NCBI GenBank assembly: GCA_951812775.1
Contig: OX638326.1
Coordinates: forward strand, 880,335 to 944,334
Length of the DNA stretch: 64,000 nucleotides
Source: an uncultured Alphaproteobacteria bacterium
GTDB taxonomy: Bacteria > Pseudomonadota > Alphaproteobacteria > MPNO01 > UBA2964
Reading direction: 5' to 3'
Under the pieces are notes generated by a model that did not search any database, was not told the origin of the DNA, and was given only the letters and a program-made list of their open reading frames with translations. The position numbers and the translations under genes were made by a program. The stretch's first letter is position 1. Each line of letters opens with the position of its first letter. This document shows positions 32,292-63,792 of this stretch, piece after piece.

Positions 32292-33392
32292 ATGAATTTA
32301 TTAAAGCATTCAGCGCTCGGAATTATGGCCGCTGCCGTCGTAGTGACCGGCCTGAGCGTGACAGCCGATGCCCAGTTCTTTAAGGGCAAACGCGTAAATA
32401 TCATCATCAATTATGGCGCCGGTGGGAACACCGACATTCAGGGCCGCATGGTCATGCGCCATATGAAAAAATACATTAAAGGCAAACCTCGCCTGGTCTT
32501 CCGTCATGTTTCCGGGGCTGGTGGTGTTGTTGGCGCGAACTTCCTGGGTGAAGCCGGTAAGAAGAACGGCACCATGATGGGCGTTTTCACGATTCCGATT
32601 ATGGCGCAGGTTATGAAAACACCTGAGCTTCGGGTCGATCTTTCCGCCTTCCATTATGTTGGCGCTATTGGTCAGCAAACGATTGGGCATATCCGGAAAG
32701 ATGCCATTCCAGGGAAGACTATCAAAAACTATAAAGACCTCCTCGCGAATGAGAGCCACGCAATCCGGACTGGCGGCCATGGCCCGACGAGCAGTAAAGA
32801 CCTTCGGACCCGTTTGCTGTTCCAGGCTTTGAAAATTCCGTTGAAGCATGTCACCGGTTACAAGTCCGGTGGTAAGATTCGGGCGGCCATTCTGAAAAAC
32901 GAACTCGACATGACCGCGGATTCACTCGCCGGTTATTATGGCCGGGTGGTTGTACAGTTGATCAAACCAGGGATTTCCGTGCCGATCTGGCATATCGGAA
33001 CACCTGGTCCGAACAACACTATTCTGCATTCACCGACCGTTCCAAAGAACATTCCGAGCTTCCAGGCAGTGTACGAAGAGAAATTCGGCAAGGGCGCACG
33101 CCCCGACCGCATGACGTGGGATGCCATCAGAACAATCGGTGCCTCACGTGAAATGCTCCGTATTCTGGTCTTCCGCAAAGGAACCAACCCCAAGGCTGTC
33201 GCCGAAATGCGCGCCGCTTGGGACAAAACTATGCTCGATAAGGCCTTTCTTGCAGATTACCGGAAAGTCAACGGAAGCGATTTTGATGGTAAATCAGGTG
33301 CCGACGCCCAGAAGTATGTCAAGACAATCGTGGACGTACCTAAGGATCTTGAAAAGTTTCTGCTCGATTACGCCAACGCCGCACGCGGTTAG
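32292..33392 (+). CDS. TTT-system periplasmic substrate-binding protein (TctC family)
   Basis: A signal peptide (GIMAAAVVVTGLSVTADAQ) leads into a periplasmic binding protein of the tripartite tricarboxylate transporter class: VNIIINYGAGGNTDIQGR, FRHVSGAGGVVGANFL, HVTGYKSGGKIRAAILKNEL. At 366 residues it is longer than typical TctC (about 320). It would bind a carboxylate and deliver it to the fused TctA-TctB membrane protein 80 bases downstream. ATG 32292 follows GGGAGGA. A strong hairpin separates it from the membrane gene, consistent with higher expression of the binding protein. Confidence 0.85.
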   Translation: MNLLKHSALGIMAAAVVVTGLSVTADAQFFKGKRVNIIINYGAGGNTDIQGRMVMRHMKKYIKGKPRLVFRHVSGAGGVVGANFLGEAGKKNGTMMGVFTIPIMAQVMKTPELRVDLSAFHYVGAIGQQTIGHIRKDAIPGKTIKNYKDLLANESHAIRTGGHGPTSSKDLRTRLLFQALKIPLKHVTGYKSGGKIRAAILKNELDMTADSLAGYYGRVVVQLIKPGISVPIWHIGTPGPNNTILHSPTVPKNIPSFQAVYEEKFGKGARPDRMTWDAIRTIGASREMLRILVFRKGTNPKAVAEMRAAWDKTMLDKAFLADYRKVNGSDFDGKSGADAQKYVKTIVDVPKDLEKFLLDYANAARG

Positions 33393-33420
33393 GTCAAATC
33401 GACTGACGTAGAGCTATGAA

Positions 33421-33444
33421 GGGGACGTCCATCCGGACGTCCCC
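33421..33444 (+). promoter_or_regulatory. intercistronic hairpin between TctC and TctAB genes
   Basis: GGGGACGTCC at 33421-33430 pairs perfectly with GGACGTCCCC at 33435-33444 around a four-base loop, with no T tract after it. It probably stabilises the upstream mRNA or causes partial termination, adjusting binding-protein to permease ratio. A similar hairpin occupies the same place in the second TTT locus (56784-56816). Confidence 0.65.
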
Positions 33445-33472
33445 ATTTCATCCATCATAGAGGTAGACCGCC

Positions 33473-35488
33473 ATGACATTTATGGAAGCGGTTCTGGACG
33501 GGCTCAGGCTCGTACTCGTTTGGCCCGCGCCCGGCTATATGCTGCTGGGTGTCGCCATTGGCATGTTTTTCGGAGCCGTCCCGGGGCTCGGCGGCCTGGT
33601 TGGCATGGCAATCATTCTACCTTTTACATTCGGGATGGAACCGAATGTCGCGTTTGCCTTTATTCTCGGCATGTACGCGGTAACAACGACAGCAGACACC
33701 CTGTCTTCAGTGCTGCTCGGGATACCCGGAACAGCAGCATCTCAAGCCACCATTCTTGATGGTTATCCCATGGCGCAACGAGGAGAAGCCTCACGTGCAC
33801 TCGGTGCGGCCTATACCGTTTCGATGATTGGCGGCGTCATTGGCGCTGTCTTTCTGGCGATTTCTATTCCGGTCATCCGGCCGGTCATTTTATCTTTTTC
33901 TGAGCCTGAACTCTTTGCGCTTGCTGTCCTCGGTCTCACGATGGTTGCCTCGCTTAGCGGGAAATCCATCTTCAAGGGCACGGCGGCTGCCTGCTTTGGG
34001 CTCATGCTCGCCACAATCGGCTTTGCGGAATTTGGCGGAGTCCGCCGTTACTGGTTTGACCAGAACTTCCTTCTCGAAGGGCTACCTATCGTTCCTTACG
34101 TGCTCGGCTTGTTTGCCATTCCCGAAATACTAGAGCTGGCTGTTCGTAACACCTCGATATCCCGGGTTCAGAGGGAAGAGGTTGCTACCGGCGGCATTAT
34201 CAATGGCATGAAAGATGCTGCCAAACATTGGTGGCTTGGCATTCGTTGTACCTGTATCGGCGTCTATGTTGGCATGTTGCCTGGTCTAGGGGGCTCGATC
34301 GTTGACTGGGTCGCCTATGGTCATGCGGCGCAAAGCGAAAAGAACAATGAGAACTTCGGTAAGGGTGACGTCCGCGGTGTCATCGCGCCAGAGGCCGCCA
34401 ACAATGCGATGAAAGGCGGCGCTCTGCTGCCGACAATTGCCTTTGCCATTCCGGGCAGTGCCTCAATGGCGATCCTGCTCAGTGCTTTCTTTATCCAGGG
34501 GCTGGAACCCGGTCCGCAAATGCTGACGGATAAGCTCAACATTACTTTCACGCTGGTGTGGACACTCGTCCTTGCCAATGTTGCCGGTGCAGTTGCATTG
34601 CTCCTGTGGGGCAGTCAGGCCTCAAAGATCACCTATCTGCAGGGCCACATCATCGTGCCCGCGATTATGCTGGTTGTCTTTATGGGGGCCTGGGTCGGCA
34701 ACGGCACACTGGGTAACTGGATCGTTTTGCTGGTCTTTGGTGTCATTGGCTATTTCATGAAGTTAGGTGGCTGGCCGCGACCGCCCATCGTTTTAGGGTT
34801 TGTGCTTGGCAAAATCATGGAGGAGGCAATGAACCTCTCCATGCAAACTCACGCCTGGGGCTCTTTCACCCGCCCGATTGTCCTCGTCATTATCGTGTTG
34901 ATCATTGCCACTATCATTCATGCGGTCATGAAACAGCGCAAAAAACAAAAAGAACTCGCAGAGCCAAGCGAGTTCAAACCTGGCGAAGGCTCAATGATTG
35001 TCGCGGAAGGCGGCAAAGATTGCCCGCCAGCCTCCTGGCCTATTTCTGCCTTACTGGTGATGATGTTTGTCTATTGCTTCGTGGAAGCAATGCAATGGTC
35101 ATTCTCACCAAGGGTTTTCCCACAGACGGTTTCGACAATTGGCTGCTTCCTCGCCCTGGGCGCGCTGATCTACGACCTCAAGGGAAGAGCCGCTCTTAAG
35201 GCCGGTACGGCCGCAGCCGATGTCGTCGGGGTCGATAGTGCCTATGTCTTAAAGAGTCTTTATTACCTGTCCTGGCTCATCGGAATATTTGTTCTGACAC
35301 TGCTCATAGGGCAGTTCCCGTCCCTCGTCCTGTTCGTCATTCTATATCTGAAGTTCTGGGGGAATTTCAGCTGGAAGGTCATCGCTATCTACACCGTCTT
35401 TGCGATCACGTTCCTGTTGATTATGTTCAACGAGATTGTACCGGTGCTGTGGTATGAACCACCTCACCTGCCCTCGTTCTTCGTATAG
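33473..35488 (+). CDS. TTT-system permease, TctA fused to a TctB domain
   Basis: A 671-residue inner-membrane protein. The first about 490 residues are a normal TctA: GMFFGAVPGLGGLVGMAIIL, LSSVLLGIPGTAASQATILDG, and VGMLPGLGGSIVDWVAYGHA with the repeated loop motif, followed by APEAANNAMKGGALLPTIAF. After a charged linker (KQRKKQKELAEPSEFKPGEG, about 480-505) a TctB-like four-helix domain follows (FSPRVFPQTVSTIGCFLALG, ILYLKFWGNFSWKVIAIYTV). TctA and TctB are normally separate genes, as at 56854-58903. No second TctB gene is present here, so the fusion supplies it. ATG 33473 follows GAGGTAGACC. Confidence 0.85.
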   Translation: MTFMEAVLDGLRLVLVWPAPGYMLLGVAIGMFFGAVPGLGGLVGMAIILPFTFGMEPNVAFAFILGMYAVTTTADTLSSVLLGIPGTAASQATILDGYPMAQRGEASRALGAAYTVSMIGGVIGAVFLAISIPVIRPVILSFSEPELFALAVLGLTMVASLSGKSIFKGTAAACFGLMLATIGFAEFGGVRRYWFDQNFLLEGLPIVPYVLGLFAIPEILELAVRNTSISRVQREEVATGGIINGMKDAAKHWWLGIRCTCIGVYVGMLPGLGGSIVDWVAYGHAAQSEKNNENFGKGDVRGVIAPEAANNAMKGGALLPTIAFAIPGSASMAILLSAFFIQGLEPGPQMLTDKLNITFTLVWTLVLANVAGAVALLLWGSQASKITYLQGHIIVPAIMLVVFMGAWVGNGTLGNWIVLLVFGVIGYFMKLGGWPRPPIVLGFVLGKIMEEAMNLSMQTHAWGSFTRPIVLVIIVLIIATIIHAVMKQRKKQKELAEPSEFKPGEGSMIVAEGGKDCPPASWPISALLVMMFVYCFVEAMQWSFSPRVFPQTVSTIGCFLALGALIYDLKGRAALKAGTAAADVVGVDSAYVLKSLYYLSWLIGIFVLTLLIGQFPSLVLFVILYLKFWGNFSWKVIAIYTVFAITFLLIMFNEIVPVLWYEPPHLPSFFV

Positions 35489-36447: not shown

Positions 36448-37194
36448 TTATCCATTCATTTCAGCGCTGTAACCGCCATCGACGAACAGGTTTTCACCAT
36501 AGATGAAGGAAGCTTCGTCGCTGGCCATGAAGTTAACCGCGGCGGCAAGCTCTTGCGGCAGTCCCGGACGATGCAACATATTCTGGACAAAACGATCAGG
36601 ATCGAATTCCTGCTTACCGACCGGAGACCCAATACGGTTTGGCACAACAGAATTCACGCGAATACCATATTCGGCATATTGCGACGCGATCGCCCGCATC
36701 AGATTGGCAACGCCGCCTTTGGCAGCACAATACGCAACAGCGCTGTTACGTCCCTTAAAGCCCGAGGTGGAGCCGATATTTACCATGGCACCGCCATCGC
36801 CCTGCTCGATCATCTGTTCACCGACATATTTGCAGGTCAGGAACTGGCTGGTCAGCGTAACGTCGATGGTTTTCTGGAAATCAGCCAGCGTGCATTCGCG
36901 GATCGTCAGGTTATCTGAGATCGCAACATTGTTGACCAGGATATCAATGCGGCCAAAGGCTTTCACCGTTTCCGCGACCATATTTTTAACCGAGTCTTCA
37001 TCCGCAACATTGGCCTGAATGAATACAGCACAGCCTTCTTTCTCAGCGTTCAGTTTATCGGCGGCTTCCTTCCCGCGATCATCCAGATCAACGACGGCGA
37101 CTTTTGCGCCTTCCTGTACAAAAAGCTTGGCGGTTTCTTCGCCGATATTGCGGCCCGCACCGGTGACGATTACGACTTTATTTTCATGTCTCAT
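36448..37194 (-). CDS. short-chain dehydrogenase/reductase (SDR)
   Basis: A 248-residue classical SDR: KVVIVTGAGRNIGEETAKLF, Asp after strand 2 (VAVVDLDDRG), LVNNVAI, catalytic Ser in NIGSTSGFKG, and YCAAKGGVANL with Tyr and Lys near 151-155; it closes YGENLFVDGGYSAEMNG. ATG 37194 is chosen because GGGAG precedes it; an in-frame ATG at 37209 lies before that site. It is divergent from the UbiD-type decarboxylase across about 240 bases that contain an inverted repeat. Confidence 0.86.
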   Translation of the reverse strand: MRHENKVVIVTGAGRNIGEETAKLFVQEGAKVAVVDLDDRGKEAADKLNAEKEGCAVFIQANVADEDSVKNMVAETVKAFGRIDILVNNVAISDNLTIRECTLADFQKTIDVTLTSQFLTCKYVGEQMIEQGDGGAMVNIGSTSGFKGRNSAVAYCAAKGGVANLMRAIASQYAEYGIRVNSVVPNRIGSPVGKQEFDPDRFVQNMLHRPGLPQELAAAVNFMASDEASFIYGENLFVDGGYSAEMNG

Positions 37195-37273
37195 AGTGCT
37201 CCCTTTCATTAGTAGCTTTGGTTTTCCTTGATGGCGCGGATTGAATAGATCACCCCGCCCGGAGTCAATGGAC

Positions 37274-37300: not shown

Positions 37301-37435
37301 TCGTAACGCGTTGCCACTGGCGCGACCTGAAATCGTGGTGTAAAAACATTCGGGAAACAGCAACAAAATAAGGGCTTCTGCACGCTGAAATCATCAGCCG
37401 TGTAAGACTCCTTTTGGCGGTAAATGGAGAAAAAG

Positions 37436-38914
37436 ATGGACGACTCAAGGAGTTCAGCAATAGCCAACGATCAAGCCAGCTATCGCGGTCTGCGCGACTG
37501 GATCGAAAAAGTCGATGACTTCGGTGAATTGCTATGCGTCGATAACGCAAGTTGGGACGCTGAAATGGGCAGCATCACCCAGATGATGACAGAAAAGAGC
37601 AGGGGCAATGCCCCTGCGCTCCTGTTCGACAATATTCCTGACTATGAACAGGGCTTTCGGACACTTTACGGGTCTCTTTCCTCTGTTCGCCGCGTCGCAC
37701 TGACCCTTGGTCTACCGCTCGAATTCGACCGTAAAGTCGATATTGTCCAACGATATTACGACCGCATGCAGAACATGCAGCTGATCCCGCCGAAGATGGT
37801 GGAGTCCGGCCCGGTGATGGAAAACGTCCTTACCGGCGATGACATTGATGTTCTGAAATTCCCTGTCCCGCGCCATCACGAGCAGGATCAGGCACGCTAT
37901 ATCGGCACCGCCAACTGCGTTATTTCGAAAGACCCCGATAACGGCTCCTTCAATGTCGGTACCTATCGCAACCAAGTCTATGATGCGAAGACCATCGGTT
38001 GCCAGATCACCGAGGGCAAGCACGGTCGTATCCATCGCGATAAGTATTTTGAACGCGATGAAGAGTGTAAATTTGTCATCCTGGTCGGTGAAGACCCGCT
38101 TCTTTATATGCTGTCTGCCAGTCCGCTGCCCGAAGGCGTTTGCGAGTTTGATTTTGCGGGTGGACTGCGCGGTGATGCCATTGAATGCATCGAAGGCCCC
38201 TATACCGGCTTCCCCATTCCAGCCGATGCCGAGATCGCCATTGAAGGCGTGGCCCGTCCGGGCAAGGTAAAGCAGGAAGGTCCGTTCGGCGAATGGATGG
38301 GGTATTACTCAGATGATTCTGTGCCCCGCGCCTATGTCGAGATCAAAACCATCTTGCACCGCAATGATCCAATCATCTGTTGCGCCCCGCAACATAAACC
38401 GGTCGACGAGACCGGACTTCTAAAAGGCATTGCCGGTTCGGCAGAAATCTGGCGGTCGCTGGAAGCCTGCGGGCTCCCTGACATCAAAGGGGTCTGGAAC
38501 CACGAAGGAGGCCCGGCAACCCGCTTTACCGCTATCCAGATCAGACAGCGTTATCCCGGTCATGCACGAAACGTGCTTCACGTTGCGTCAAACTGCCAGG
38601 GCGGTGCCTATGCCGGTAAATGGACCGTGGTCGTCGATGAAGATATCGACGCTGGCGATCTCGATCAGGTCCTCTGGGCGATGAGTACGCGATTCGACCC
38701 GATAACTGACATTGATACTATTCAGAAAGCCTGGGCATCAGGCCGCGATCCGCTTGTGCAGCCAGGCAACTTCAATAGTCGTATCCTTATCGATGCCTGC
38801 ATCCCCTATGATCAATATCTCAAGGGGACGTTCCCGCAGGTCGTGGATGTCAGCGACGAATTGCGCAAAAAAATGAGAGAAGAATTCAGCCACCTGCCTT
38901 TCCCGCAGGATTAG
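37436..38914 (+). CDS. UbiD-family decarboxylase
   Basis: A 492-residue protein of the prenylated-FMN decarboxylase family, which removes or adds CO2 on aromatic or unsaturated acids. It has NVGTYRNQVYD near 173-183 (metal and prFMN phosphate contacts), a following His-containing HGRIHRDKYF, and QEGPFGEWMGYY near 280-291 with the two catalytic glutamates of UbiD/Fdc. It ends VSDELRKKMREEF. ATG 37436 is favoured by GGAGAAAAAG ahead; an ATG four codons earlier is in frame. The flavin prenyltransferase (UbiX) is not in the window. It stands at the head of the EutA/NiCoT/cupin/RidA cluster. Confidence 0.88.
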   Translation: MDDSRSSAIANDQASYRGLRDWIEKVDDFGELLCVDNASWDAEMGSITQMMTEKSRGNAPALLFDNIPDYEQGFRTLYGSLSSVRRVALTLGLPLEFDRKVDIVQRYYDRMQNMQLIPPKMVESGPVMENVLTGDDIDVLKFPVPRHHEQDQARYIGTANCVISKDPDNGSFNVGTYRNQVYDAKTIGCQITEGKHGRIHRDKYFERDEECKFVILVGEDPLLYMLSASPLPEGVCEFDFAGGLRGDAIECIEGPYTGFPIPADAEIAIEGVARPGKVKQEGPFGEWMGYYSDDSVPRAYVEIKTILHRNDPIICCAPQHKPVDETGLLKGIAGSAEIWRSLEACGLPDIKGVWNHEGGPATRFTAIQIRQRYPGHARNVLHVASNCQGGAYAGKWTVVVDEDIDAGDLDQVLWAMSTRFDPITDIDTIQKAWASGRDPLVQPGNFNSRILIDACIPYDQYLKGTFPQVVDVSDELRKKMREEFSHLPFPQD

Positions 38915-38938
38915 AGCTGGCTGCCTACAGTAGGCGCG

Positions 38939-38958
38939 CGGCGGGGCAGACCCCGCCG
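38939..38958 (+). promoter_or_regulatory. GC-rich hairpin between UbiD and EutA-like genes
   Basis: CGGCGGGG at 38939-38946 pairs with CCCCGCCG at 38951-38958 across the loop CAGA. No T tract follows. It may partly end the ubiD transcript or protect its 3' end; the downstream genes then need their own or read-through transcription. Confidence 0.5.
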
Positions 38959-38991
38959 TCGCCGTATCAATGAGATTGAGAGCAAAAGGAT

Positions 38992-40533
38992 ATGGACGTG
39001 CACGATTTAGGTTTTGAACATATCAGCATGACGCCAGAGCAGGAGCAGGACCTGGCGGAAACAATCTGGAAACAGGATAATGTCGAGCTGACGACAGTTG
39101 GCGTTGATGTCGGCTCATCGACCTCTCATCTGATGTTCTCCAAGGTTCATCTGCAACGTCTGGCTGAGGGCCTCTCGAGCCGATTTGTCGTCGTGAACCG
39201 CCAGGTCTTGTGGCGTTCCCCCATCCTGCTGACGCCTTATCGTTCCGACTACACAATCGACGCCGATGAGCTGAAAGAATTTTTTGGTAACGCCTATATA
39301 GAGGCGGAGCTGACGCCAGAAGATATCGATACAGGCGCGGTGATCCTCACGGGGGAAGCCCTGAAACGGAACAATGCCCGCGCGATCGCCGATCTGTTTG
39401 CTGAAGAGTCTGGCAAATTTGTATGCGCCTCGGCTGGCCATAATCTCGAAGCGCTTATGGCCGCAAATGGTTCCGGGGCGGTTGCGCTGTCCGGACAGGA
39501 TCACAAGACCATTCTCAACATCGATATTGGTGGCGGCACCATCAAACTCGGCCTGTGCCACGGTGGACGGCTGCTGGCAACTTCTGCCTTCGCCGTCGGT
39601 GGACGCCTCATTGCCTTTGATGATGATGGCAAGATGACCCGTATCGAAGGCCCTGCTGAACAGGTTGCCGAAGATGTCGGCGTCAAGCTGGCGCTTGGCG
39701 AGGTCCTTTCTAAAGAAGATAAGAAGAAGATCGTCAGCCGTATGGTCGATGTCATCGTTTCCTATGCAACACGCGAACCAAATGATGATCTTTGCAAGGC
39801 GCTCCTGCTCACCGAAACATTGCCACAGACGCCGGCAATTGACGGGATCACCTTTTCAGGCGGCGTTTCCGAATTTGTTTATCGGCGCGAGGATGAAGAC
39901 CGGGGCGACCTTGGAAAATCGATTGCGCACGATCTCCGCCATGCCTTGGCCGACAAGCGTATTCCCGAAACGGTCTATGACCCCGGCCACGGCATACGTG
40001 CCACCGTCGTCGGCGCGTCTCAATTCACAGTGCAGGTCAGTGGCAACACGATCTTCCTGTCCGAGAAAGAGAAGCTGCCGGTCCGGAACGTTCCGGTTGC
40101 CAGCCTGGACATTGATTTGTCGGGTGACTTCACCGCGGAAGATGTTTCAACCAAGATAACAGAGGCTTTGAAGCGGCTGGATATGGTTGAAGGTGAAGAC
40201 CGTGTCGCGATTGCCTTCCGCTGGGGCGGTGATCCGCTCCATGCGCGGCTCTTTGCGTTGGCACAAGGCATCTGTAATGGCCTGCCCAAAACGGTCGCAG
40301 ATCCCGAGCTGCCCGTCGTCGTCATGATGGACGGCGATGCGGGTCGGACCATTGGCAACATTCTGGTGAAAGAACTGAATGTCGAAGGCGAAGTTATTTC
40401 AGTTGATAATGTGCAGCTGAGCGATTTTGACTTTGTCGATATCGGTGAATTTATGCCGGATACACAGGTCGTCCCGCTGATCATCAAGTCGCTCTTGTTT
40501 ACCTCACAGGTCAGGAGTAAGAACCAGCGATGA
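38992..40533 (+). CDS. EutA-type reactivating factor (ethanolamine ammonia-lyase reactivase family)
   Basis: The 513-residue protein has an actin-like ATPase fold as in EutA: phosphate-1 TVGVDVGSSTSHLMFS near 35-50, VILTGEALKRNNARAIADLF, CASAGHNLEALMAANGSGA, NIDIGGGTIKLG near 176-187, ITFSGGVSEF, and DIGEFMPDTQVVPLIIKSLL at the end. EutA restores B12-dependent ethanolamine ammonia-lyase by swapping damaged cobalamin, using ATP. The target genes eutB and eutC are absent. Instead it is overlapped by a Ni/Co transporter gene (ATGA at 40530-40533) and preceded by a UbiD-type gene. It is about 45 residues longer than E. coli EutA, mostly at the N-terminus. Confidence 0.82.
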   Translation: MDVHDLGFEHISMTPEQEQDLAETIWKQDNVELTTVGVDVGSSTSHLMFSKVHLQRLAEGLSSRFVVVNRQVLWRSPILLTPYRSDYTIDADELKEFFGNAYIEAELTPEDIDTGAVILTGEALKRNNARAIADLFAEESGKFVCASAGHNLEALMAANGSGAVALSGQDHKTILNIDIGGGTIKLGLCHGGRLLATSAFAVGGRLIAFDDDGKMTRIEGPAEQVAEDVGVKLALGEVLSKEDKKKIVSRMVDVIVSYATREPNDDLCKALLLTETLPQTPAIDGITFSGGVSEFVYRREDEDRGDLGKSIAHDLRHALADKRIPETVYDPGHGIRATVVGASQFTVQVSGNTIFLSEKEKLPVRNVPVASLDIDLSGDFTAEDVSTKITEALKRLDMVEGEDRVAIAFRWGGDPLHARLFALAQGICNGLPKTVADPELPVVVMMDGDAGRTIGNILVKELNVEGEVISVDNVQLSDFDFVDIGEFMPDTQVVPLIIKSLLFTSQVRSKNQR

Positions 40534-41258
40534 CTGTTCTATCCGTTCTCGCTATTGGGTTTCTACTAGGACTGCGCCATGCACTTGATGCTGATCACGT
40601 TGCGGCCGTTGCGGCGCTGGCAACCCAGGCCCGTTCTATTCGCGAAACCGTTAAAACCGGCATCGCCTGGGGCATTGGCCATACGGTAACGTTGTTTGCC
40701 GTCTGCGCGATTATCATCGTTTCGGGCGTTGCCTTTCCCGAACGCCTTGCTGGCACACTGGAATTCCTCGTAGGGCTTATGCTCGTTGGACTTGGCATAG
40801 ATGTCATCCTGAGGATCGTACGCGAACGCATTCATGTGCATGCGCATGCCCATCTCGATCAGGGCAGTCATATCCATTTTCACAGCCATGAAGACGAAAC
40901 CGACCACAATGCCTCTGCACATGACCATGACCATCGCTCGACCCTTCCAAAACGCGCCCTGGCGATTGGCTTAATGCACGGCCTAGCCGGTTCCGCCGCC
41001 CTCCTCCTGTTGGCAGTCAGTCAACAGATTTCAACAGCTGAGGCCCTGATCTATGTCCTGATATTTGGCGTCGGATCGGTGGCTGGCATGGCTATTTTAT
41101 CCGCTGCCATCGCTTGGCCGATCATGGCCAGTGCGCGTCGGGGAACCAACCTTTTCAAGCGCTTTAATCTGGCAATTGGGACAGGCACAGCGCTAATCGG
41201 CGCCTTCGTGATGGTCCACGCCTTCCCGAGTGTGACGGCACTGATCACCAGCCTTTAG
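40530..41258 (+). CDS. NiCoT-like nickel/cobalt transporter
   Basis: A 242-residue membrane protein. Helix 1 holds LGLRHALDADHVAA, the HX4DH signature (His17, Asp22, His23) of nickel/cobalt permeases. A His-rich cytoplasmic or periplasmic loop (residues about 103-140, HVHAHAH and HIHFHSH) probably binds metal, and a second GLMHGLAGSAALLLL lies in a later helix. Four bases overlap the EutA-like gene, showing translational coupling; with EutA, cobalt supply for cobalamin is the attractive reading, though direction of transport is not shown by sequence. The next cupin gene begins ten bases on. Confidence 0.82.
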   Translation: MTVLSVLAIGFLLGLRHALDADHVAAVAALATQARSIRETVKTGIAWGIGHTVTLFAVCAIIIVSGVAFPERLAGTLEFLVGLMLVGLGIDVILRIVRERIHVHAHAHLDQGSHIHFHSHEDETDHNASAHDHDHRSTLPKRALAIGLMHGLAGSAALLLLAVSQQISTAEALIYVLIFGVGSVAGMAILSAAIAWPIMASARRGTNLFKRFNLAIGTGTALIGAFVMVHAFPSVTALITSL

Positions 41259-41268
41259 GGAGTTCGAG

Positions 41269-41643
41269 ATGCCCGAGTTTAGAATTCTCAATCTTGCAGA
41301 TGCCCCGGTCACGCCGATGAAAGGTGATCGTGGCACGCAGCTCCGCCTGATCAATGCTGATATCGGTGCCGAGAAGGTCGACGTACATCTGAACCGTCTG
41401 GATCCGAAAGAACCCGGTGGCCGCTACCACCACCATACCAACGCCGATAACGTCTATATCGTCAAAAAAGGCCAGGGACAGTTGGTCGTCGAAGGCAAGA
41501 CATACACGATCAAGGAAGACGACGTCATCTATATCCCGGCAGGTCAGAAGCACTCTTTGACTAATGTCAGCGACGAGCCTTTTGAAATTTTTGAAGTCTA
41601 CACACCTGCCGGCAAGGACTTCGATTTCGTGATCGACGACTAA
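41269..41643 (+). CDS. small cupin-domain protein
   Basis: A 124-residue single cupin: motif 1 RYHHHTNADNVYIVKKGQGQ near 48-67 with three consecutive His and a usual Glu/Asp position, and motif 2 YIPAGQKHSLTNVSDEPFEI near 90-110 with the last metal His. It lies ten bases behind the Ni/Co transporter and likely belongs to the EutA operon. It may be a small metal-dependent enzyme or sensor. A second cupin gene is convergent and overlaps by four bases. Confidence 0.82.
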   Translation: MPEFRILNLADAPVTPMKGDRGTQLRLINADIGAEKVDVHLNRLDPKEPGGRYHHHTNADNVYIVKKGQGQLVVEGKTYTIKEDDVIYIPAGQKHSLTNVSDEPFEIFEVYTPAGKDFDFVIDD

Positions 41644-42059
41644 TCTGGATCAGGCGGCTGAACGCCATCAGGCCAGTCATCAACTTCGTGAAAATCTTTC
41701 CCCGCTGGAGCATAGACCTCGACGATTTTACAGGCGACATCTGATCTTGCATTGGTTGCCGTATGCACGACACCGGGCGGGATAAAGCCAACCTCGCCCA
41801 CATCCAGCACATGGCGCTGACCACCTTCTATACAGACTTCAAGTTGGCCATCCATCACGATATAGACGTTCTCGGCCTTCTCGTGAAAATGAATCTCGCC
41901 CCGACTGGCGCCCGGTTTAATAACATTCACATGCACATCGACATTGCTTGAGCCCACAGATGGGTCAACACAGCCGAACACGGTACCTCGCCCGTGGGGC
42001 AATTGACGGGTCGGCGCATCGAGAATTTTTACTTTATGAAATTTTGATTTTTCGGTCAT
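41640..42059 (-). CDS. small cupin-domain protein
   Basis: A 139-residue single cupin with motif 1 RGEIHFHEKAENVYIVMDGQ (two His and Glu) and motif 2 IPPGVVHTATNARSD (His). ATG 42059 follows GGGAGGACGTC; a frame extending to 42257 has no such signal and leaves the family region. It overlaps the other cupin tail to tail, and both proteins end with YxPAGKDF-like words (VYTPAGKDFD and VYAPAGKDFH), so they are paralogues placed in opposite orientation. Confidence 0.82.
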   Translation of the reverse strand: MTEKSKFHKVKILDAPTRQLPHGRGTVFGCVDPSVGSSNVDVHVNVIKPGASRGEIHFHEKAENVYIVMDGQLEVCIEGGQRHVLDVGEVGFIPPGVVHTATNARSDVACKIVEVYAPAGKDFHEVDDWPDGVQPPDPD

Positions 42060-42192
42060 GACGTCCTCCCTGTTTCCGATATGGGAGCATATCGCGGAGT
42101 TGGCACAGCCGATAGGTTTGGCGCCGTTGACAGTCATGCATCCTTCGCCCAATTTGACGGCAATAAAAGTCAGATATTCAGGGAGAAGCGTG

Positions 42193-42570
42193 ATGGGATT
42201 TGAAGTTGTCGAAGTTCTTGATTTGCCACCACCGGGGCAATTCACCCATGTCGTCAAAAAGGGAAAGATGGTCTTTATATCCGGTCAGACCGCCAACCCG
42301 GAAGCCGAGGCCGGTAATCTTGAACCCGGCCCACATGCCGAGCGCGTTTTCGGTTATCTGAAAAGCGCCGTCGAAGCCGCCGACGGCGATATGTCCGACA
42401 TCGTTAAAATCAATATTTTCCTGACAGACCTGTCACAATTTCCGGCGATCCTGGAATGGCGCCCCAAATTCTTCAAGGAACCCTACCCTGCCGCCACATG
42501 TCTCGTAGTCGACTCCATGGTCCAGCGTGAGCTGATCATGGAAATCGAAGCGATTGCGATCCTCGACTAA
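42193..42570 (+). CDS. RidA family protein (Rid/YjgF, reactive-intermediate deaminase)
   Basis: A 125-residue trimer-forming RidA protein: QFTHVVKKGKMVFISGQTA, then DIVKINIFLTDLSQFPAILE, then YPAATCLVVDSMVQRELIME. The conserved Arg of RidA near the end (RELIME, RxxxE) is present. Such proteins hydrolyse reactive imines and enamines. ATG 42193 follows GGGAGAAGCGTG. It precedes the ornithine-cyclodeaminase-like gene by 22 bases, which can make imines, so the pairing is chemically sensible. Confidence 0.85.
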   Translation: MGFEVVEVLDLPPPGQFTHVVKKGKMVFISGQTANPEAEAGNLEPGPHAERVFGYLKSAVEAADGDMSDIVKINIFLTDLSQFPAILEWRPKFFKEPYPAATCLVVDSMVQRELIMEIEAIAILD

Positions 42571-42592
42571 GCAGAAAGATAAGGAACCTACT

Positions 42593-43621
42593 ATGGCTGA
42601 AAACGAAGGTGTTCTCTTCATTCCCTATGCAGATACGGTTGATCTGCTCAGCGCCAAGGAAGCGCTGCAAATAGCCGAAGACGTATACCGTATGCAGGGA
42701 GAAGGCTCGGTCATGGCCTCGACACCACCGAGCTTCAAGCTCGATGTCGGCGAGCCCTTTCACAATCACTGGCATGTCAAATGTGCGCTTCTGAAGGAAA
42801 CACCGATCACCGGCGTCCGGCTTTACAACTATTTTGACGACGGTAACCGCAATACGGTCGGCCAGCTCGAGTGCGGCCGCTATATCATCCTTGCCGACCC
42901 CAATACCGGTACCAACAAAGCCATCGTCGAAGAGCACTGGACCTATGCGATCCGCAGTGCGGCGGCGACAACCCTGCCACTCAAATGGTTGGGGCCCAAA
43001 GACCCAAAGGTCGTTGGCATTGTCGGCGTTGGCACCATGGCAACCAATGCGCTGCGCTGTCTCGTGGAACTCTATGACGGAATTGAGGAAATTCGCTGCA
43101 CGTCGCGTAGCCCGCAAACCCGTGACGCTTTTGCGGAGAAATGGTCGGCCAAGCTCGGTATCAACGTCGTGGCCAAAGACTCAATTGAAGAGGTGGTACG
43201 CGATGCCGATATTGGTATCGGTGGTACGACCAGCGATGAAATTATGTGTCGCGAGCCCTGGTTAAAACCCGGCGCAACCTATGTGTCCTTTACCCGCCGC
43301 GAATTCGACCCGGAAGGCTGGCCGTTGATGGATAAAGTAGTTGTCGATAGTTGGGAAATGAACATGTTGATGAAGTATTTCCGGGCATCAGCCGAGGCTG
43401 GAATTTTCACGCATGACATGCTGCATGGTGAAATTCACGAGCTGGTGCGTGGCAAAGTCCCGGGACGCGAAAGCGACACCGAGCGCAATCTGATTCACAC
43501 CACCGGTCTGGTGGCGCACGACATCGCAATGTGTCATTACGTTTATCAGAAAGCCTTGGATAAAGGCGTCGGTGTTCGCCTGCCCTTCACGGGCACTGGC
43601 AACCCCGGTCCAATTGACTAG
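42593..43621 (+). CDS. ornithine cyclodeaminase/mu-crystallin family protein
   Basis: A 342-residue NAD(P)-binding protein. It starts FIPYADTVDLLSAKEALQIA, has a Rossmann motif VVGIVGVGTMATNAL near 141-155 and RCTSRSPQTRDAFAEKW after it, then an IGGTTSDEIM segment. The family covers ornithine cyclodeaminase, alanine dehydrogenase and imine reductases. ATG 42593 follows AAGGAACC; a frame from 42554 is not needed. It is between RidA and a dihydroxyphthalate-decarboxylase-like gene, 19 bases before the latter, and probably co-transcribed with both. Confidence 0.83.
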   Translation: MAENEGVLFIPYADTVDLLSAKEALQIAEDVYRMQGEGSVMASTPPSFKLDVGEPFHNHWHVKCALLKETPITGVRLYNYFDDGNRNTVGQLECGRYIILADPNTGTNKAIVEEHWTYAIRSAAATTLPLKWLGPKDPKVVGIVGVGTMATNALRCLVELYDGIEEIRCTSRSPQTRDAFAEKWSAKLGINVVAKDSIEEVVRDADIGIGGTTSDEIMCREPWLKPGATYVSFTRREFDPEGWPLMDKVVVDSWEMNMLMKYFRASAEAGIFTHDMLHGEIHELVRGKVPGRESDTERNLIHTTGLVAHDIAMCHYVYQKALDKGVGVRLPFTGTGNPGPID

Positions 43622-43640
43622 ATCACGGAGAAGCACCCAA

Positions 43641-44630
43641 ATGTCCAAGAAGATTCCCCTGACCCTCGCCTGTGGTGACTATGCAATCACCCGCCCGCTC
43701 ATTGACGGAATTGTTAAACCGGATGGTATCGATTTGACCGTCCTCACCGACATGGATTCCACGACACGGCACTGGCGTTTCTATAACAATGAAGACTTCG
43801 ATATGGCCGAAGCCTCCTGCTCGACATATCTCGTCGCCAAGGATCAGGACAAGCCGTTCGATGCTATTCCGGTGTTTCTGCATCGCCGGTTCCGGCACGG
43901 CTTCGTGTTTATCAACACAAATGCGGGGATCAAGGAACCCAAAGACCTGATCGGCAAGAAGGTCGGCATCAAGCATTGGCAGGTTACCGCCATTCTGTGG
44001 ATGAAGGGTATTCTCGAGCATGAATATGGCGTGCCGCACCGCTCGATCGACTGGTATCAGGAACTTGATCAGGACATCCCGGTTGAACTCCCAGACGACA
44101 TCAAATTGCAGACCTTGCCGGATGACAAATCGGTGGAGACGATGGTCGCGGAAGGCGAGCTGGATGCCTGTATTCACTCCTCAATCATCAAACCGTTTAT
44201 CAATGGTGACCCACGTGTCGCGCGACTGTTTCCCGATTTCAAACAGGAAGAGGTCAATTTCTACAATAAGACCGGCATGTTCCCGATCATGCACATCACC
44301 GGCATCAAAAAAGAAATCGTCGAACAATATCCCTGGGTGCCGATCAACATGTTTCACGCGCTGAACGAAGCAAAAGCAATTGCCATGAAACAGATGGTCA
44401 ATCCGCGCATTGTGCCCTTGGCTTGGTATCGCGAGGCCTGGGAAGAACAGGAACAACTTCTGGGAAAAGACCCCTGGGAATACGGGCTTGGCGAGCAAAA
44501 CCGCAAGACGCTCGAGAATATGATCAACTTTTCACATGAGCAGGCGCTGATGAAGAACAAGATGTCCGTCGACGATTTGTTCCTGAGCGTTGATCAGGGC
44601 CGAAAACGCGGCGTTGAAAAGCGGATTTAG
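43641..44630 (+). CDS. 4,5-dihydroxyphthalate-decarboxylase-like / substrate-binding-fold protein
   Basis: A 329-residue cytosolic protein with no signal peptide: LTLACGDYAITRPLIDGIVK, PDGIDLTVLTDMDS, then KKVGIKHWQVTAILWMKGIL, and LDACIHSSIIKPFI. This is the NMT1/periplasmic-binding fold used by Pht5-type 4,5-dihydroxyphthalate decarboxylase, which removes CO2 from an aromatic diacid. The start ATG 43641 follows GGAGAAGCACCCAA. It closes the cluster; a UbiD-type decarboxylase opens it, hinting at breakdown of an aromatic carboxylate. True decarboxylase activity is not proven by this fold. Confidence 0.78.
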   Translation: MSKKIPLTLACGDYAITRPLIDGIVKPDGIDLTVLTDMDSTTRHWRFYNNEDFDMAEASCSTYLVAKDQDKPFDAIPVFLHRRFRHGFVFINTNAGIKEPKDLIGKKVGIKHWQVTAILWMKGILEHEYGVPHRSIDWYQELDQDIPVELPDDIKLQTLPDDKSVETMVAEGELDACIHSSIIKPFINGDPRVARLFPDFKQEEVNFYNKTGMFPIMHITGIKKEIVEQYPWVPINMFHALNEAKAIAMKQMVNPRIVPLAWYREAWEEQEQLLGKDPWEYGLGEQNRKTLENMINFSHEQALMKNKMSVDDLFLSVDQGRKRGVEKRI

Positions 44631-49762: not shown

Positions 49763-51049
49763 GGACACCTCGAAGAACGTTCGGTTTGGCCGCTTGCGGC
49801 GTGATTTGACCGGGTGGGCGCGTCTGAGTGTCGGTTTTTTCGAGCCGTTTTGCGTCGATTTGATCGGTTTAGCCGGTCGAACCGGCCGTTCCGGCGTCAT
49901 GTGGGCGCACTTCGCCCCTGGAGCCAGAGGAAACGGCGCATGTTATACGCCAGATTGGTCATGCCGATCTTGGCCTCGGCCCGGGCGATGCCGATGGTCC
50001 GAACCGAGAGCGCCATCAAGCCTTTCTGATGGGCGAAGACATGCTCGACGGCGGAGCGTACCGCCGAGCGCGCCGCGTTGGCCTTGGCCAGGGTCGCCGG
50101 CATCGGCTTGCCGCGCGGCTTGCGGAAGTGGATCTGGGAGCGCTTGCCTTGGCGCGCCAGCATCTTCTCGTTACGCTTGGACCGATAGGCGGTATCCGCC
50201 CAGACCGGGCTCGCCGTGTTCTCCGGATCGATCAGACCGGCGAGCTGGCGGCCGTCATTGGCGGCGGCATCGGTGACGCGCCACTTGCGGATCAACCCGT
50301 GCCGCCGGTCCGTGGAGATGTGGTTCTTGTAGCCAAACGCCGGCACCATGATCTCCGGCCCCTTGGGGTGCCCATCCTCCAGACGCTTCACTCGGCCACG
50401 CTTCATGGTCCAGCGCGCATCCCGGTCTTTCTGGGCCAGCTTGGCCGGCTTGTCCTTCCACTCCTCTGGCACCTTGCCGGCCTTCAACGCCACCTTCTCC
50501 GGAACGCTGTTGCGCTGCCTGGGCGCCGCGACGATCGTGGCATCGACGATCTGGCCCGACAGCGCCAGGTAGCCATGGCCGCGCAGGTGTTCGTCGAAGC
50601 GATCGAACAACGCCTCGATCGCCTTGGCCTGCACCAGCAACTCACGGAACAGCCAGATCGTCTTGGCGTCCGGCACCCGGGCGTGAAGCCCCAGGCCCAG
50701 GAACCGCATGAAAGACAGCCGGTCGCGGATCTGGAACTCGGTTTGATCATCCGAGAGATTGTATAGTGCCTGCAACACCAGGATCTTGAACATCAGAACG
50801 GGGTCATAGGGAGGCCGGCCACCCTGGCGCCGGTCCGAGCGACGTAGCGCCCGGATCAAGGGCCGGCGAAACAACTCGAAATCGACCAACTCACCAAGCC
50901 GAAGCAACGGATCACCCGCCGCCGACAGTGCCGCGTAACGCTCATCAAGATCGAAAAAACCGGGCTGATCCGACATTCCATCCTCCATCAAGCCGATGAG
51001 AGAAGTGAAGCAGATCATGGCCAAAATGACGAGGTTTTTAGAGGCGCCC
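49763..51049 (-). mobile_element. IS5-type insertion sequence, copy A (1287 bp)
   Basis: Comparison with the copy at 61904-63189 sets the ends. The element runs from GGACACCTCG to GAGGCGCCC, with imperfect terminal inverted repeats (GGACACCTC against GGGCGCCTC, 7 of 9 bases). It is flanked by the direct repeat CATT at 49759-49762 and 51050-51053; removing it restores a continuous MAPEG reading frame (YVIGYITE). It differs from copy B by one T in a T run near the left end and by a T/G at about 51036. Such near identity points to recent transposition. Confidence 0.92.
49897..50976 (-). CDS. IS5-family transposase, copy A
   Basis: A 359-residue DDE transposase. It starts MSDQPGFFDLDERYAALSAA with GGAGG ahead at 50976; an upstream in-frame codon at 51024 lies further into the terminal region. 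The N-terminal domain continues RQGGRPPYDPVLMFKILVLQ; catalytic core parts are SGQIVDATIVAAPRQRNS (first Asp), SPVWADTAYRSKRNE (second Asp) and AVRSAVEHVFAHQKGLMAL (Glu), the Y-(2)-R-(3)-E-(6)-K-like signature of IS5. The frame is intact, so the element may be active. Confidence 0.9.
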   Translation of the reverse strand: MSDQPGFFDLDERYAALSAAGDPLLRLGELVDFELFRRPLIRALRRSDRRQGGRPPYDPVLMFKILVLQALYNLSDDQTEFQIRDRLSFMRFLGLGLHARVPDAKTIWLFRELLVQAKAIEALFDRFDEHLRGHGYLALSGQIVDATIVAAPRQRNSVPEKVALKAGKVPEEWKDKPAKLAQKDRDARWTMKRGRVKRLEDGHPKGPEIMVPAFGYKNHISTDRRHGLIRKWRVTDAAANDGRQLAGLIDPENTASPVWADTAYRSKRNEKMLARQGKRSQIHFRKPRGKPMPATLAKANAARSAVRSAVEHVFAHQKGLMALSVRTIGIARAEAKIGMTNLAYNMRRFLWLQGRSAPT

Positions 51050-59665: not shown

Positions 59666-60610
59666 ATGAGCAATCTGATCACCAATATGCCAAATGACCC
59701 GGGAGATATTCAGGGAGAAGAGCACTGGGCAAAACGCGGCGACATTGATCTGTTTTTATTTCGCCGGTATTCGCCGACAGCCCGTGCCGCAAACCCGGAT
59801 AAACCCGTGTTGTTTCTGGTACATGGATCATCGTTTTCTGCGCGAACGGCCTATGATCTGGACATCCCCGGCCAGGGTGACTACTCGCTGATGCGGACCT
59901 TTGCCGGACTGGGATATGACGTCTGGACCATGGATCATGAAGGCTATGGCAAATCCAGTCATACTGACGGGTTTTCCTACATCGCAGATGGTGTGGAAGA
60001 CCTCAGGGCTGCAGCACCGGTCGTAGAGAAAGTAACCGGAAAGAGTGCCTTTTGTTTCTTCGGATCATCATCCGGCGCCCTACGCGCTGGCGGTTTCGCC
60101 AATGCTTGCCCGGAGCGTGTCGAAAAATTGGTTTTGGCAGCTTTGGTCTGGACTGGCGAAGGCTCACCAACACTCAAAAAACGGGCTAAAAAGATTGACG
60201 AGTGGCGCGCCACCAATCGCCGTACCGTCGACGAAGCTGCCTATTTGAACATCTTTAATCGCGACGTTCAGGGGCTGACCATTCCAGAACTGCCCGCTGC
60301 CGCAGCGGCAGCAGAAATGGCCAATGGTGGCGGAAGCGTCCCCAACGGCACCTATATCGATATGTGCGTCAATCTGCCTGTCGTCGACCCTACGAAAGTT
60401 GATTGCCCGGTTATGATTTTCCGTGGCGATCACGATGGCATTGCTACTGATGAAGATGTCCTCGGGTTCTTTACGGCGCTGCCTAACAAGGACAAGCAAC
60501 TCGTCATGGTTTCGGGTCAGGCTCACAACACAACAATCGGCATCAACCGCGCACGCTTCTGGCATTCGCTGGACGGATTCCTGTGTATGCCGGGTCGGGT
60601 CGATCAATAG
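59666..60610 (+). CDS. alpha/beta hydrolase, tandem copy 1
   Basis: A 314-residue hydrolase: LFLVHGSSFSARTAYDL (oxyanion region), WTMDHEGYGKSS, nucleophile CFFGSSSGALRAGG (G-S-S-S-G), acid in FRGDHDGIATDED, and catalytic His in VSGQAHNTT. ATG 59666 follows TTGGAGAAGAGTTTT. The next hydrolase gene starts two bases after its stop and is a close paralogue (same WTMDHEGYG, GSSSGALRA, HDGIAT words). The pair probably arose by duplication; substrate unknown. Confidence 0.82.
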   Translation: MSNLITNMPNDPGDIQGEEHWAKRGDIDLFLFRRYSPTARAANPDKPVLFLVHGSSFSARTAYDLDIPGQGDYSLMRTFAGLGYDVWTMDHEGYGKSSHTDGFSYIADGVEDLRAAAPVVEKVTGKSAFCFFGSSSGALRAGGFANACPERVEKLVLAALVWTGEGSPTLKKRAKKIDEWRATNRRTVDEAAYLNIFNRDVQGLTIPELPAAAAAAEMANGGGSVPNGTYIDMCVNLPVVDPTKVDCPVMIFRGDHDGIATDEDVLGFFTALPNKDKQLVMVSGQAHNTTIGINRARFWHSLDGFLCMPGRVDQ

Positions 60611-60612
60611 AC

Positions 60613-61524
60613 ATGACTGCAGATATCTGGAACCAGGAGTACTGGGCGCTTAAAGGCGATATAAAACTCTATATGTGGCGCAAACGGATCGGTGATCCGG
60701 TAAACGACACCGCGCCTAAGCCCGTCCTTTTCCTCGTTCATGGCTCGTCTTTTAGCGGGCCAACGGGGTTCGATCTTCAGGTGCCGGGCAAGCCCGATTA
60801 CTCCTTAATGGATAAATTTGCGTCTTATGGTTTCGATGTCTGGACCATGGATCATGAAGGCTATGGCCGGTCCGACAGCACTGACGGCAACTCCCCGATT
60901 TCCGAAGGGGTTCATGACCTGAGAGCCGGTATGGACGTTGTCACGCGGGAAACAGGGCAAACGAGCGCCGCATTTTATGGGTCCTCTTCGGGCGCGTTAC
61001 GCGCAGCGGCCTTCGCAGAAGCTTATCAAGAGAACGTCAGCAAGCTGATCCTCGATGCTTTTGTCTATACCGGCGAGGACGCCCCTACCCTGATCGAGCG
61101 CGCCAAAAAGATGGATCAATGGACGTCCAGCAATGTCCGCCCGGTTGACCGCGCGTTTTTCCTGTCGATCTTTACTCGGGACAAACCCGGCACCTCCGAA
61201 GAGGGCGTTGCCGAAACTCTGGCCGACACAGAGCTAGCCATCTGTGACGCTGTGCCAACCGGCACCTATGTCGATATGTGTTCCATCCTGCCAGTGTGCG
61301 ATCCAACCAAGACAACCTGTCCGGTTCTGATCATCCGCGGTGAACATGACGGGATCGCGACTGAAGAAGATTTATTGAATTACTTCAACAAACTGCCAAC
61401 CCGAGACAAACAGTTCGTGATTATCCCGGGCCTCGCCCATGTGACTTTTCTCGGCCGCAACCGCGCACGTTTCTGGCACGTTGTGAAGAATTTCCTCAAC
61501 GCTCCGGAACGTGTCGATATTTAA
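60613..61524 (+). CDS. alpha/beta hydrolase, tandem copy 2
   Basis: A 303-residue paralogue of the preceding gene: LFLVHGSSFSGPTGFDL, WTMDHEGYGRSD, FYGSSSGALRAAA with the nucleophile Ser, IRGEHDGIATEED, and PGLAHVTFLGRNRARFW with the catalytic His. It begins two bases beyond the upstream stop, so the pair is one transcript. The stretch before the oxyanion motif (KRIGDPVNDTAPKPV) is variable between the copies. It is convergent with the broken aldo-keto reductase, four bases apart. Confidence 0.82.
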   Translation: MTADIWNQEYWALKGDIKLYMWRKRIGDPVNDTAPKPVLFLVHGSSFSGPTGFDLQVPGKPDYSLMDKFASYGFDVWTMDHEGYGRSDSTDGNSPISEGVHDLRAGMDVVTRETGQTSAAFYGSSSGALRAAAFAEAYQENVSKLILDAFVYTGEDAPTLIERAKKMDQWTSSNVRPVDRAFFLSIFTRDKPGTSEEGVAETLADTELAICDAVPTGTYVDMCSILPVCDPTKTTCPVLIIRGEHDGIATEEDLLNYFNKLPTRDKQFVIIPGLAHVTFLGRNRARFWHVVKNFLNAPERVDI

Positions 61525-61903: not shown

Positions 61904-63189
61904 GGACACCTCGAAGAACGTTCGGTTTGGCCGCTTGCGGCGTGATTTGACCGGGTGGGCGCGTCTGAGTGTCGGTTTTTCGAGCCGTTTTGCGTCGATT
62001 TGATCGGTTTAGCCGGTCGAACCGGCCGTTCCGGCGTCATGTGGGCGCACTTCGCCCCTGGAGCCAGAGGAAACGGCGCATGTTATACGCCAGATTGGTC
62101 ATGCCGATCTTGGCCTCGGCCCGGGCGATGCCGATGGTCCGAACCGAGAGCGCCATCAAGCCTTTCTGATGGGCGAAGACATGCTCGACGGCGGAGCGTA
62201 CCGCCGAGCGCGCCGCGTTGGCCTTGGCCAGGGTCGCCGGCATCGGCTTGCCGCGCGGCTTGCGGAAGTGGATCTGGGAGCGCTTGCCTTGGCGCGCCAG
62301 CATCTTCTCGTTACGCTTGGACCGATAGGCGGTATCCGCCCAGACCGGGCTCGCCGTGTTCTCCGGATCGATCAGACCGGCGAGCTGGCGGCCGTCATTG
62401 GCGGCGGCATCGGTGACGCGCCACTTGCGGATCAACCCGTGCCGCCGGTCCGTGGAGATGTGGTTCTTGTAGCCAAACGCCGGCACCATGATCTCCGGCC
62501 CCTTGGGGTGCCCATCCTCCAGACGCTTCACTCGGCCACGCTTCATGGTCCAGCGCGCATCCCGGTCTTTCTGGGCCAGCTTGGCCGGCTTGTCCTTCCA
62601 CTCCTCTGGCACCTTGCCGGCCTTCAACGCCACCTTCTCCGGAACGCTGTTGCGCTGCCTGGGCGCCGCGACGATCGTGGCATCGACGATCTGGCCCGAC
62701 AGCGCCAGGTAGCCATGGCCGCGCAGGTGTTCGTCGAAGCGATCGAACAACGCCTCGATCGCCTTGGCCTGCACCAGCAACTCACGGAACAGCCAGATCG
62801 TCTTGGCGTCCGGCACCCGGGCGTGAAGCCCCAGGCCCAGGAACCGCATGAAAGACAGCCGGTCGCGGATCTGGAACTCGGTTTGATCATCCGAGAGATT
62901 GTATAGTGCCTGCAACACCAGGATCTTGAACATCAGAACGGGGTCATAGGGAGGCCGGCCACCCTGGCGCCGGTCCGAGCGACGTAGCGCCCGGATCAAG
63001 GGCCGGCGAAACAACTCGAAATCGACCAACTCACCAAGCCGAAGCAACGGATCACCCGCCGCCGACAGTGCCGCGTAACGCTCATCAAGATCGAAAAAAC
63101 CGGGCTGATCCGACATTCCATCCTCCATCAAGCCGATGAGAGAAGTGAAGCAGATCATGGCCAAAATGACGAGGTGTTTAGAGGCGCCC
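61904..63189 (-). mobile_element. IS5-type insertion sequence, copy B (1286 bp)
   Basis: Identical to copy A except for one fewer T near the left end and a G for T near the right end. It runs from GGACACCTCG at 61904 to GAGGCGCCC ending 63189 and is flanked by AAGC at 61900-61903 and 63190-63193. Removing it restores the aldo-keto reductase frame (SPLGRGMLTG). The two copies lie in the same orientation about 10.9 kb apart; since each has its own 4-bp duplication they inserted independently. Confidence 0.92.
62037..63116 (-). CDS. IS5-family transposase, copy B
   Basis: The same 359-residue DDE transposase as in copy A, starting MSDQPGFFDL at 63116 after GGAGG and ending at 62037. Its frame opens further upstream into the interrupted gene, but the internal start has the ribosome-binding site. 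Both transposases being intact makes homologous recombination or further transposition possible. Confidence 0.9.
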   Translation of the reverse strand: MSDQPGFFDLDERYAALSAAGDPLLRLGELVDFELFRRPLIRALRRSDRRQGGRPPYDPVLMFKILVLQALYNLSDDQTEFQIRDRLSFMRFLGLGLHARVPDAKTIWLFRELLVQAKAIEALFDRFDEHLRGHGYLALSGQIVDATIVAAPRQRNSVPEKVALKAGKVPEEWKDKPAKLAQKDRDARWTMKRGRVKRLEDGHPKGPEIMVPAFGYKNHISTDRRHGLIRKWRVTDAAANDGRQLAGLIDPENTASPVWADTAYRSKRNEKMLARQGKRSQIHFRKPRGKPMPATLAKANAARSAVRSAVEHVFAHQKGLMALSVRTIGIARAEAKIGMTNLAYNMRRFLWLQGRSAPT

Positions 63190-63792
63190 AAGCGGCGAGT
63201 AAGCAACAAAGCCGATATCAAGATCTCGGCACAGCGGTAGAATTTCATCCTCTACAAATCGCGTCCAAAGCAAATACTCGGTCTGAAGCGCCGCAATAGG
63301 ATGAGTCGCATGCGCCCGACGAATTGTATCCGGACCCGCTTCAGAAAGTCCTAAATACCGGACTTTACCCTGCTCAACGAGCTGCGCCATAGCGCCGACC
63401 GTTTCCTCAATCGGCACGTCCTTATCCACACGATGCTGAAAAAAGAGATCAATCACATCTGTGTTCAGCCGCGACAGGCTCTTTTCGCACGCTTCGATGA
63501 CATATTCAGGACGGCCATCCGCGCGGCCACCCAAATTACCAAACTTGGTTGCCAGAAACACTTTGTCGCGTTGCCCGGCAAGCGCCCGTCCCAGCAATTC
63601 TTCATTCTTGCCACCGCCATAGGCGTCCGATGTATCAATGAAATTCAAGCCAGCATCGATACCCGCCTGCAATGCTGAAACTGCCTCATCTTTGTTCGCA
63701 GCGCCGTAAATGCTGGTCATTGCCATGCCACCCAACCCGATGGCAGATATGTCGACGTCACAACACCCTAGCTTCCGATATTTCATATCCAT
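63190..63792 (-). pseudogene. aldo-keto reductase, N-terminal part cut by IS
   Basis: ATG 63792 begins [20 protein letters not shown], then [20 protein letters not shown] with the catalytic Asp-Tyr, [12 protein letters not shown] with the active-site Lys, and [19 protein letters not shown] with the His of the tetrad. The frame reaches VAYSPLGR and is then cut by the insertion sequence. The enzyme would reduce aldehydes or ketones with NADPH in the cytosol. Given the insertion and the TAA in the distal part it is dead. Confidence 0.85.

Follow-up and report, generated by a model that had tools for sequence, protein, structure and literature searches.

A 64,000-nucleotide stretch of DNA from an uncultured alphaproteobacterium (GenBank assembly GCA_951812775.1, contig OX638326.1, positions 880,335 to 944,334; hereafter the window) encodes a EutA-like actin-fold ATPase, whose gene lies between those of a UbiD-family (de)carboxylase and a predicted metal permease, NicO. 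We find that this protein belongs to a clade whose partner class is the cupins, mostly two-domain cupins (bicupins) with a three-histidine (3-His) site in the C-terminal domain. This association is well supported. We give somewhat better than even chances to the reading that these EutA-like proteins activate or reactivate cupin metalloenzymes in an ATP-dependent manner, and do not serve adenosylcobalamin (AdoCbl) enzymes.

EutA-like proteins and their cupin neighbours

Canonical EutA is an ATP-dependent factor that clears its enzyme of damaged cobalamin (PMC5821096); the reference protein is E. coli b2451 (PF06277), the reactivase of ethanolamine ammonia-lyase (Mori et al. 2004, as cited in PMC5821096). 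The EutA-like protein of the window spans the same Pfam profile from position 2 to 474 of 475 (397 bits), and the phosphate motifs D39-x-G41, D178-GGGT183 and G290-G291 are invariant in the clade alignments. Full-length family membership and nucleotide-binding motifs are shared with canonical EutA, and ATP-driven enzyme maintenance is likely here too. Unlike canonical EutA, it belongs to a separate clade, comes from a genome without EutB, has several paralogues per genome and has cupins as neighbours. It misses every NCBIfam EutA equivalog cut-off (the best score is 336 bits versus a cut-off of 598). Identity to canonical, plasmid-borne EutA copies is 29-31%, while inside the cupin-type clade it is 35-95%. 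The two types are split by long branches, with a support of 100 in the SH-like approximate likelihood ratio test (SH-aLRT), in a tree that includes three canonical sequences. The cupin-type proteins carry an extra N-terminal segment, and one paralogue branch (locus L021) has His-rich tails. Another candidate for a His-rich EutA class, cluster 14, was rejected; it is an ABC permease. A scan of viral contigs with the EutA-like protein gave no match.

The predicted structure of the EutA-like protein (predicted local distance difference test, pLDDT, 84) matches the folds of Ppx/GppA, HgdC, PilM and MreB; a sequence search of solved structures found only distant MreB and PPX relatives. The presence of HgdC (1hux) among the fold matches, together with a weak BadF/BcrAD Pfam match, would be consistent with an archerase-like redox activase of the HgdC/BcrAD type, which injects electrons into its partner at the expense of ATP. 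However, the clade alignments contain no invariant cysteine and hence no shared site of the HgdC-type [4Fe-4S] kind. We set this possibility aside as extremely improbable.

The window genome has four EutA-like paralogues. The other three each adjoin a bicupin of 380-408 amino acids, at a distance of 3-129 bp. A scan found more than 500 relatives, and the 80 closest from named genomes were fetched. These span Alpha- and Betaproteobacteria, Chloroflexi (among them SAR202), Paenibacillus, Cohnella, Binatia and others. A bicupin lies within 350 bp of the EutA-like gene in 53 of the 80, within 1.5 kb in two more and farther off in three, and seven loci, all from the window clade, have a small 3-His cupin within 800 bp. 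Of 73 EutA-bicupin pairs, 70 share a strand; the bicupin precedes EutA in 42 of these and follows it in 28. In one cultured, annotated isolate the two members of the pair are labelled “hypothetical protein” and “ethanolamine ammonia-lyase reactivating factor EutA.” EutA classes that coexist in a genome each have a bicupin class of their own, a pattern of co-duplication. Pairwise distances in the EutA-like and bicupin families also run in parallel (Mantel r 0.81; maximum of 0.19 in 2000 permutations).

The two families also occur together across genomes. When 289 genomes of the class were drawn evenly, six proved to encode a full-length EutA-like protein (>350 bits) and one more a fragment of it at a contig edge, next to its bicupin; bicupins (E < 1e-25) occur in exactly the same seven. 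The chance of such an overlap is about 3e-14 by naive counting, but the seven genomes come from three families, so that its honest weight is nearer 1e-6. Among 398 genomes of the phylum, bicupins are found in the window genome alone. Canonical EutA occurs in five of these 398 genomes, always beside EutB (at 45-158 bp), and none of the five has a bicupin; the five canonical matches score 183-341 bits versus 735-864 bits for the three window-genome copies scored. Thus, canonical EutA goes with EutB and cupin-type EutA with bicupins.

The nearest outgroup orthologues of the window copy (L061, L062, L065, L067, L172) lie downstream of one to four bicupins. The window genome contains three orphan bicupins (L165, L166, L167), which have no neighbouring EutA and group with the array bicupins upstream of these window-type EutA genes. 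The first-pass annotation had described the window gene as a reactivase without its enzyme. The enzyme is, however, not simply missing: this branch has cupins as its partners, which lie next to the ATPase gene in the three sister paralogues and, in the case of the window copy, are dispersed orphan bicupins.

Ethanolamine and B12 enzymes

Searches for AdoCbl-dependent enzymes covered EutB, methylmalonyl-CoA mutase and diol dehydratase. EutB was not found in the whole 4.15 Mb, single-contig window genome (G000; EutC was not searched separately), in agreement with the earlier suggestion that the gene does not serve ethanolamine ammonia-lyase. EutB is also missing in 23 of 24 further genomes that carry cupin-type EutA or bicupins; in the exception, G010, it lies on another contig. 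A true eut operon has the order eutA-eutB-eutC. Methylmalonyl-CoA mutase is absent from the window genome and from all but one of 19 genomes, and diol dehydratase gave no match, although the control for that search was also silent.

It could still be argued that the protein reactivates some AdoCbl-dependent enzyme, with NicO supplying the cobalt of the corrin ring. The full-length homology to EutA, the overlap of the NicO gene with the EutA-like gene and the existence of B12-binding domains in the window genome would all fit such a role. Against it stand the absences just described. Moreover, the strongest B12-binding match in the window genome, a 1260 amino acid open frame, fits methionine synthase, which is repaired by another route. 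We regard a role with an AdoCbl-dependent enzyme as very unlikely. Of the first-pass proposal of a reactivase for a cobalamin- or metal-dependent enzyme, the metal-dependent partner stays likely, while the cobalamin enzyme is not supported.

The window locus and its relatives

The genes around the EutA-like ATPase are as follows (window coordinates):

32292..35488, plus strand: TctC receptor and TctA-type permease of a tripartite tricarboxylate transporter; conserved upstream
36448..37209, minus strand: short-chain dehydrogenase/reductase (SDR) dehydrogenase; divergent neighbour, conserved in relatives
37424..38914, plus strand: UbiD-family (de)carboxylase (PF01977, 198 bits), directly upstream of the EutA-like gene
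38992..40533, plus strand: EutA-like actin-fold (ASKHA) ATPase of the cupin-associated clade, 513 amino acids (PF06277)
40530..41258, plus strand: predicted NicO metal permease of the NiCoT/RcnA superfamily (PF03824, 42.4 bits versus a cut-off of 27.7)
41269..41643, plus strand: small cupin (cupS), starting 10 bases past NicO; H54, H56 and H95 are invariant (3-His site)
41640..42059, minus strand: second small cupin (cupL), inverted, with three His conserved as in cupS; start inferred from relatives
42193..42570, plus strand: RidA/YjgF-family protein; start inferred from 125 amino acid relatives
42596..43621, plus strand: ornithine cyclodeaminase (OCD)/mu-crystallin family protein, by family match; conserved in relatives
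43638..44630, plus strand: Pht5/NMT1-like protein with a substrate-binding fold (weak match, 24.7 bits)

All open reading frames and families of the layout first described, from UbiD to the Pht5-like gene, are confirmed, including the gap before cupS and the overlap of the EutA-like stop with the NicO start (ATGA at 40530-40533). A Pht5/NMT1-like gene is indeed present, but at its low score the decarboxylase activity once assigned to it is not established. Pht5/NMT1-like genes also lie near EutA in outgroup loci with bicupins, and TctC and TctA recur near EutA-bicupin pairs at other loci. These contexts, together with UbiD, point to carboxylic or aromatic acids. The Rfam scan of the window gave zero matches, so there is no riboswitch to name a metal or B12; promoter and terminator scans of the window gave results no better than shuffles.

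Conservation of the gene order in relatives had been set beforehand as a test. The order UbiD-EutA-(NicO)-cupin is found again in at least nine related genomes: the longer order UbiD-EutA-NicO-cupin-(cupin)-RidA-OCD-Pht5 is kept within the genus, and most of the family retains the core UbiD-EutA-cupin. In one relative (G003, L048 9107-10622) the EutA-like gene is broken into two overlapping frames, by a frameshift or an assembly error.

UbiD lies 77 bases upstream of the EutA-like gene in the window and 74-82 bp upstream in most of its family. This regular spacing raises the possibility that the adjacent UbiD is the partner and that the ATPase (re)activates it, e.g., by swapping oxidised prenylated flavin or metal. 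UbiD also precedes EutA in two further loci, immediately in L081 (17 bp) and at 467 bp in L109. However, L081 has a bicupin as well, 7 bp downstream of EutA, and beyond the window clade UbiD is seldom next to EutA, whereas a bicupin generally is. In addition, EutA is separated from UbiD and NicO in G009, and UbiD enzymes are widespread without such an ATPase. The best curated model for the window UbiD is phenylphosphate carboxylase beta, with a score below the cut-off. We consider UbiD as the partner a serious alternative, albeit an unlikely one.

A second serious alternative is that the protein is a catabolic kinase or another ASKHA enzyme of acid degradation, sharing operons with bicupins simply through a common pathway. 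Kinases and phosphatases share the fold, and some contexts contain tripartite tricarboxylate transporters and aldolases or, in Phyllobacterium, tetronate-pathway genes. On the other hand, the domain structure is that of full-length EutA and the closest kin have a reactivase function. The other context genes vary widely while the cupin is constant, and EutA and bicupin genes have duplicated together within a single genome. A catabolic enzyme of this sort seems to us quite unlikely.

The NicO protein has the motif RHALDADH (HX4DH) and a His-rich loop, which it shares with NiCoT/NicO permeases and RcnA, as it does the PF03824 match above cut-off. Unlike HoxN/NixA and RcnA, it falls below the cut-offs of those curated models; the closest is the efflux-type PRK10019, and its score is far below cut-off. 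With importer and efflux models both below cut-off, neither import nor efflux is assignable. It is the sole NicO match in the window genome. The claim that the system has its own cobalt supply is unproven, since NicO is not conserved across the clade and its closest curated model is of the efflux type. Outside the window's clade, NicO adjoins EutA in L128 and L132 and is found a few kb from it in L110, L133 and L120; CobW-type GTPases are found in L073, L128 and L133; and in Phyllobacterium a putative metal transporter follows the EutA-bicupin pair. Together with the His-rich tails of the L021 branch, these neighbours are hints of a metal role. A group of loci (L128, L132, L133, L110, L104, L124, L127) combines the EutA-like gene with an ABC transporter (ATPase, large permease, iron/phosphonate-type receptor), and part of them also have paired small cupins and CobW GTPases.

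Elsewhere in the window a DUF772/DDE transposase (insertion sequence) is present twice, at 49763-50135 and 61904-62275, with open reading frames 49897-51024 and 62037-63248 (-). The copies have long identical stretches about 12.1 kb apart and bracket a block of about 11 kb of transporter-like genes. A direct repeat of 92 bases (71% identity; 59918-60009 and 60835-60926) falls in two open reading frames 0.9 kb apart, which suggests a tandem gene duplication.

The cupin site and a proposed mechanism

The AlphaFold2 (AF2) model of the partner bicupin (pLDDT 91) has a bicupin fold. Its nearest structures are gentisate and salicylate 1,2-dioxygenases, with Z about 21 (3bu7, 2phd, 4fbf). The match to 3bu7 has VIA Z 21.6 and a root-mean-square deviation (rmsd) of 6.1 over 280 residues; that to 4fbf has Z 21.2 and rmsd 3.3 over 254 residues. 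Oxalate decarboxylase follows closely (Z 19.8), and a sequence search of solved structures with the bicupins gave short matches only. The C-terminal cupin has an invariant HxH and HQH, while the N-terminal motif has no conserved HxH. In typical gentisate/salicylate dioxygenases it is generally the N-terminal cupin that holds iron, although some members of that family have two metal centres (PMC10306065). The folds are therefore alike but the His metal ligands lie in different domains, C-terminal in the partner bicupins and N-terminal in the dioxygenases. With the ligands so placed and oxalate decarboxylase a nearly equal match, the modelled fold would name no single reaction.

Since the EutA motifs and the actin-like fold are kept, the simplest reading is EutA-like work on a metal-containing cupin. 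By analogy with EutA, the cupin-type ATPase would be a chaperone powered by ATP and would bind its enzyme. It may open the active site of the cupin, so that a dead or wrong metal leaves or a fresh metal enters; the metal might be Fe, Ni or Co. The window copy probably serves the three orphan bicupins in trans, the adjacent 3-His small cupin, or both. Service to the orphans is suggested by their sharing subclades with bicupins that stand beside window-type EutA. The window system would then be placed, with UbiD, in an acid-degrading pathway.

Several observations weigh against this reading. Gene neighbourhood and co-inheritance alone do not demonstrate binding or activation. The correlation between EutA-like and bicupin distances is inflated because linked genes share a history, which makes the class-by-class pairing of paralogues the stronger point. 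The window copy itself has no adjacent bicupin, and NicO is missing in two close relatives (G011, G012). No cupin is present in the fetched stretch of 15 of the 80 relatives; contig ends cut some of these loci and others look truly different. Because similarity to the window protein determined which loci were taken, adjacency may be less frequent in the family at large. Among the loci that differ is a deltaproteobacterial/Binatia branch of EutA-like proteins (L106, L111, L116, L119, L125), which adjoins DUF4175, TPR-peptidase and MoxR genes but lacks a cupin; other partners may thus exist in the wider family. Finally, the BicC-type bicupin of the genus, in the window genome L023 7730-8956, has lost its HxH ligands (YSP instead) and kept its EutA neighbour.

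A literature search found no paper on the pairing of a EutA-like protein with a cupin, bicupin or UbiD, most subscription journals being outside its coverage. A “EutA homolog” of ectoine metabolism described in the literature is an unrelated protein of the racemase superfamily. Cupins form a very large enzyme superfamily, and we are aware of no ATP-driven partner dedicated to their repair or metal loading. It is tempting to hypothesize, at slightly less than even chances, that a widespread family annotated “EutA” comprises dedicated ATP-dependent reactivases or metal-loading chaperones for cupin metalloenzymes, that bacteria have several cognate pairs, some of them coupled to Ni/Co transport, and that no earlier ATP-driven maintenance system is known for cupins. 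The family offers cultured test systems in Phyllobacterium and Sinorhizobium/Ensifer; the pair of Phyllobacterium zundukense is N8E88_RS06860 and RS06865 (NZ_CP104971.1). If the pairing is functional, many genes annotated as ethanolamine reactivases have the wrong name, and bicupins now listed as “hypothetical protein” would acquire a factor that maintains them. The principle of the reactivase would then reach from cobalamin to simple metal sites.

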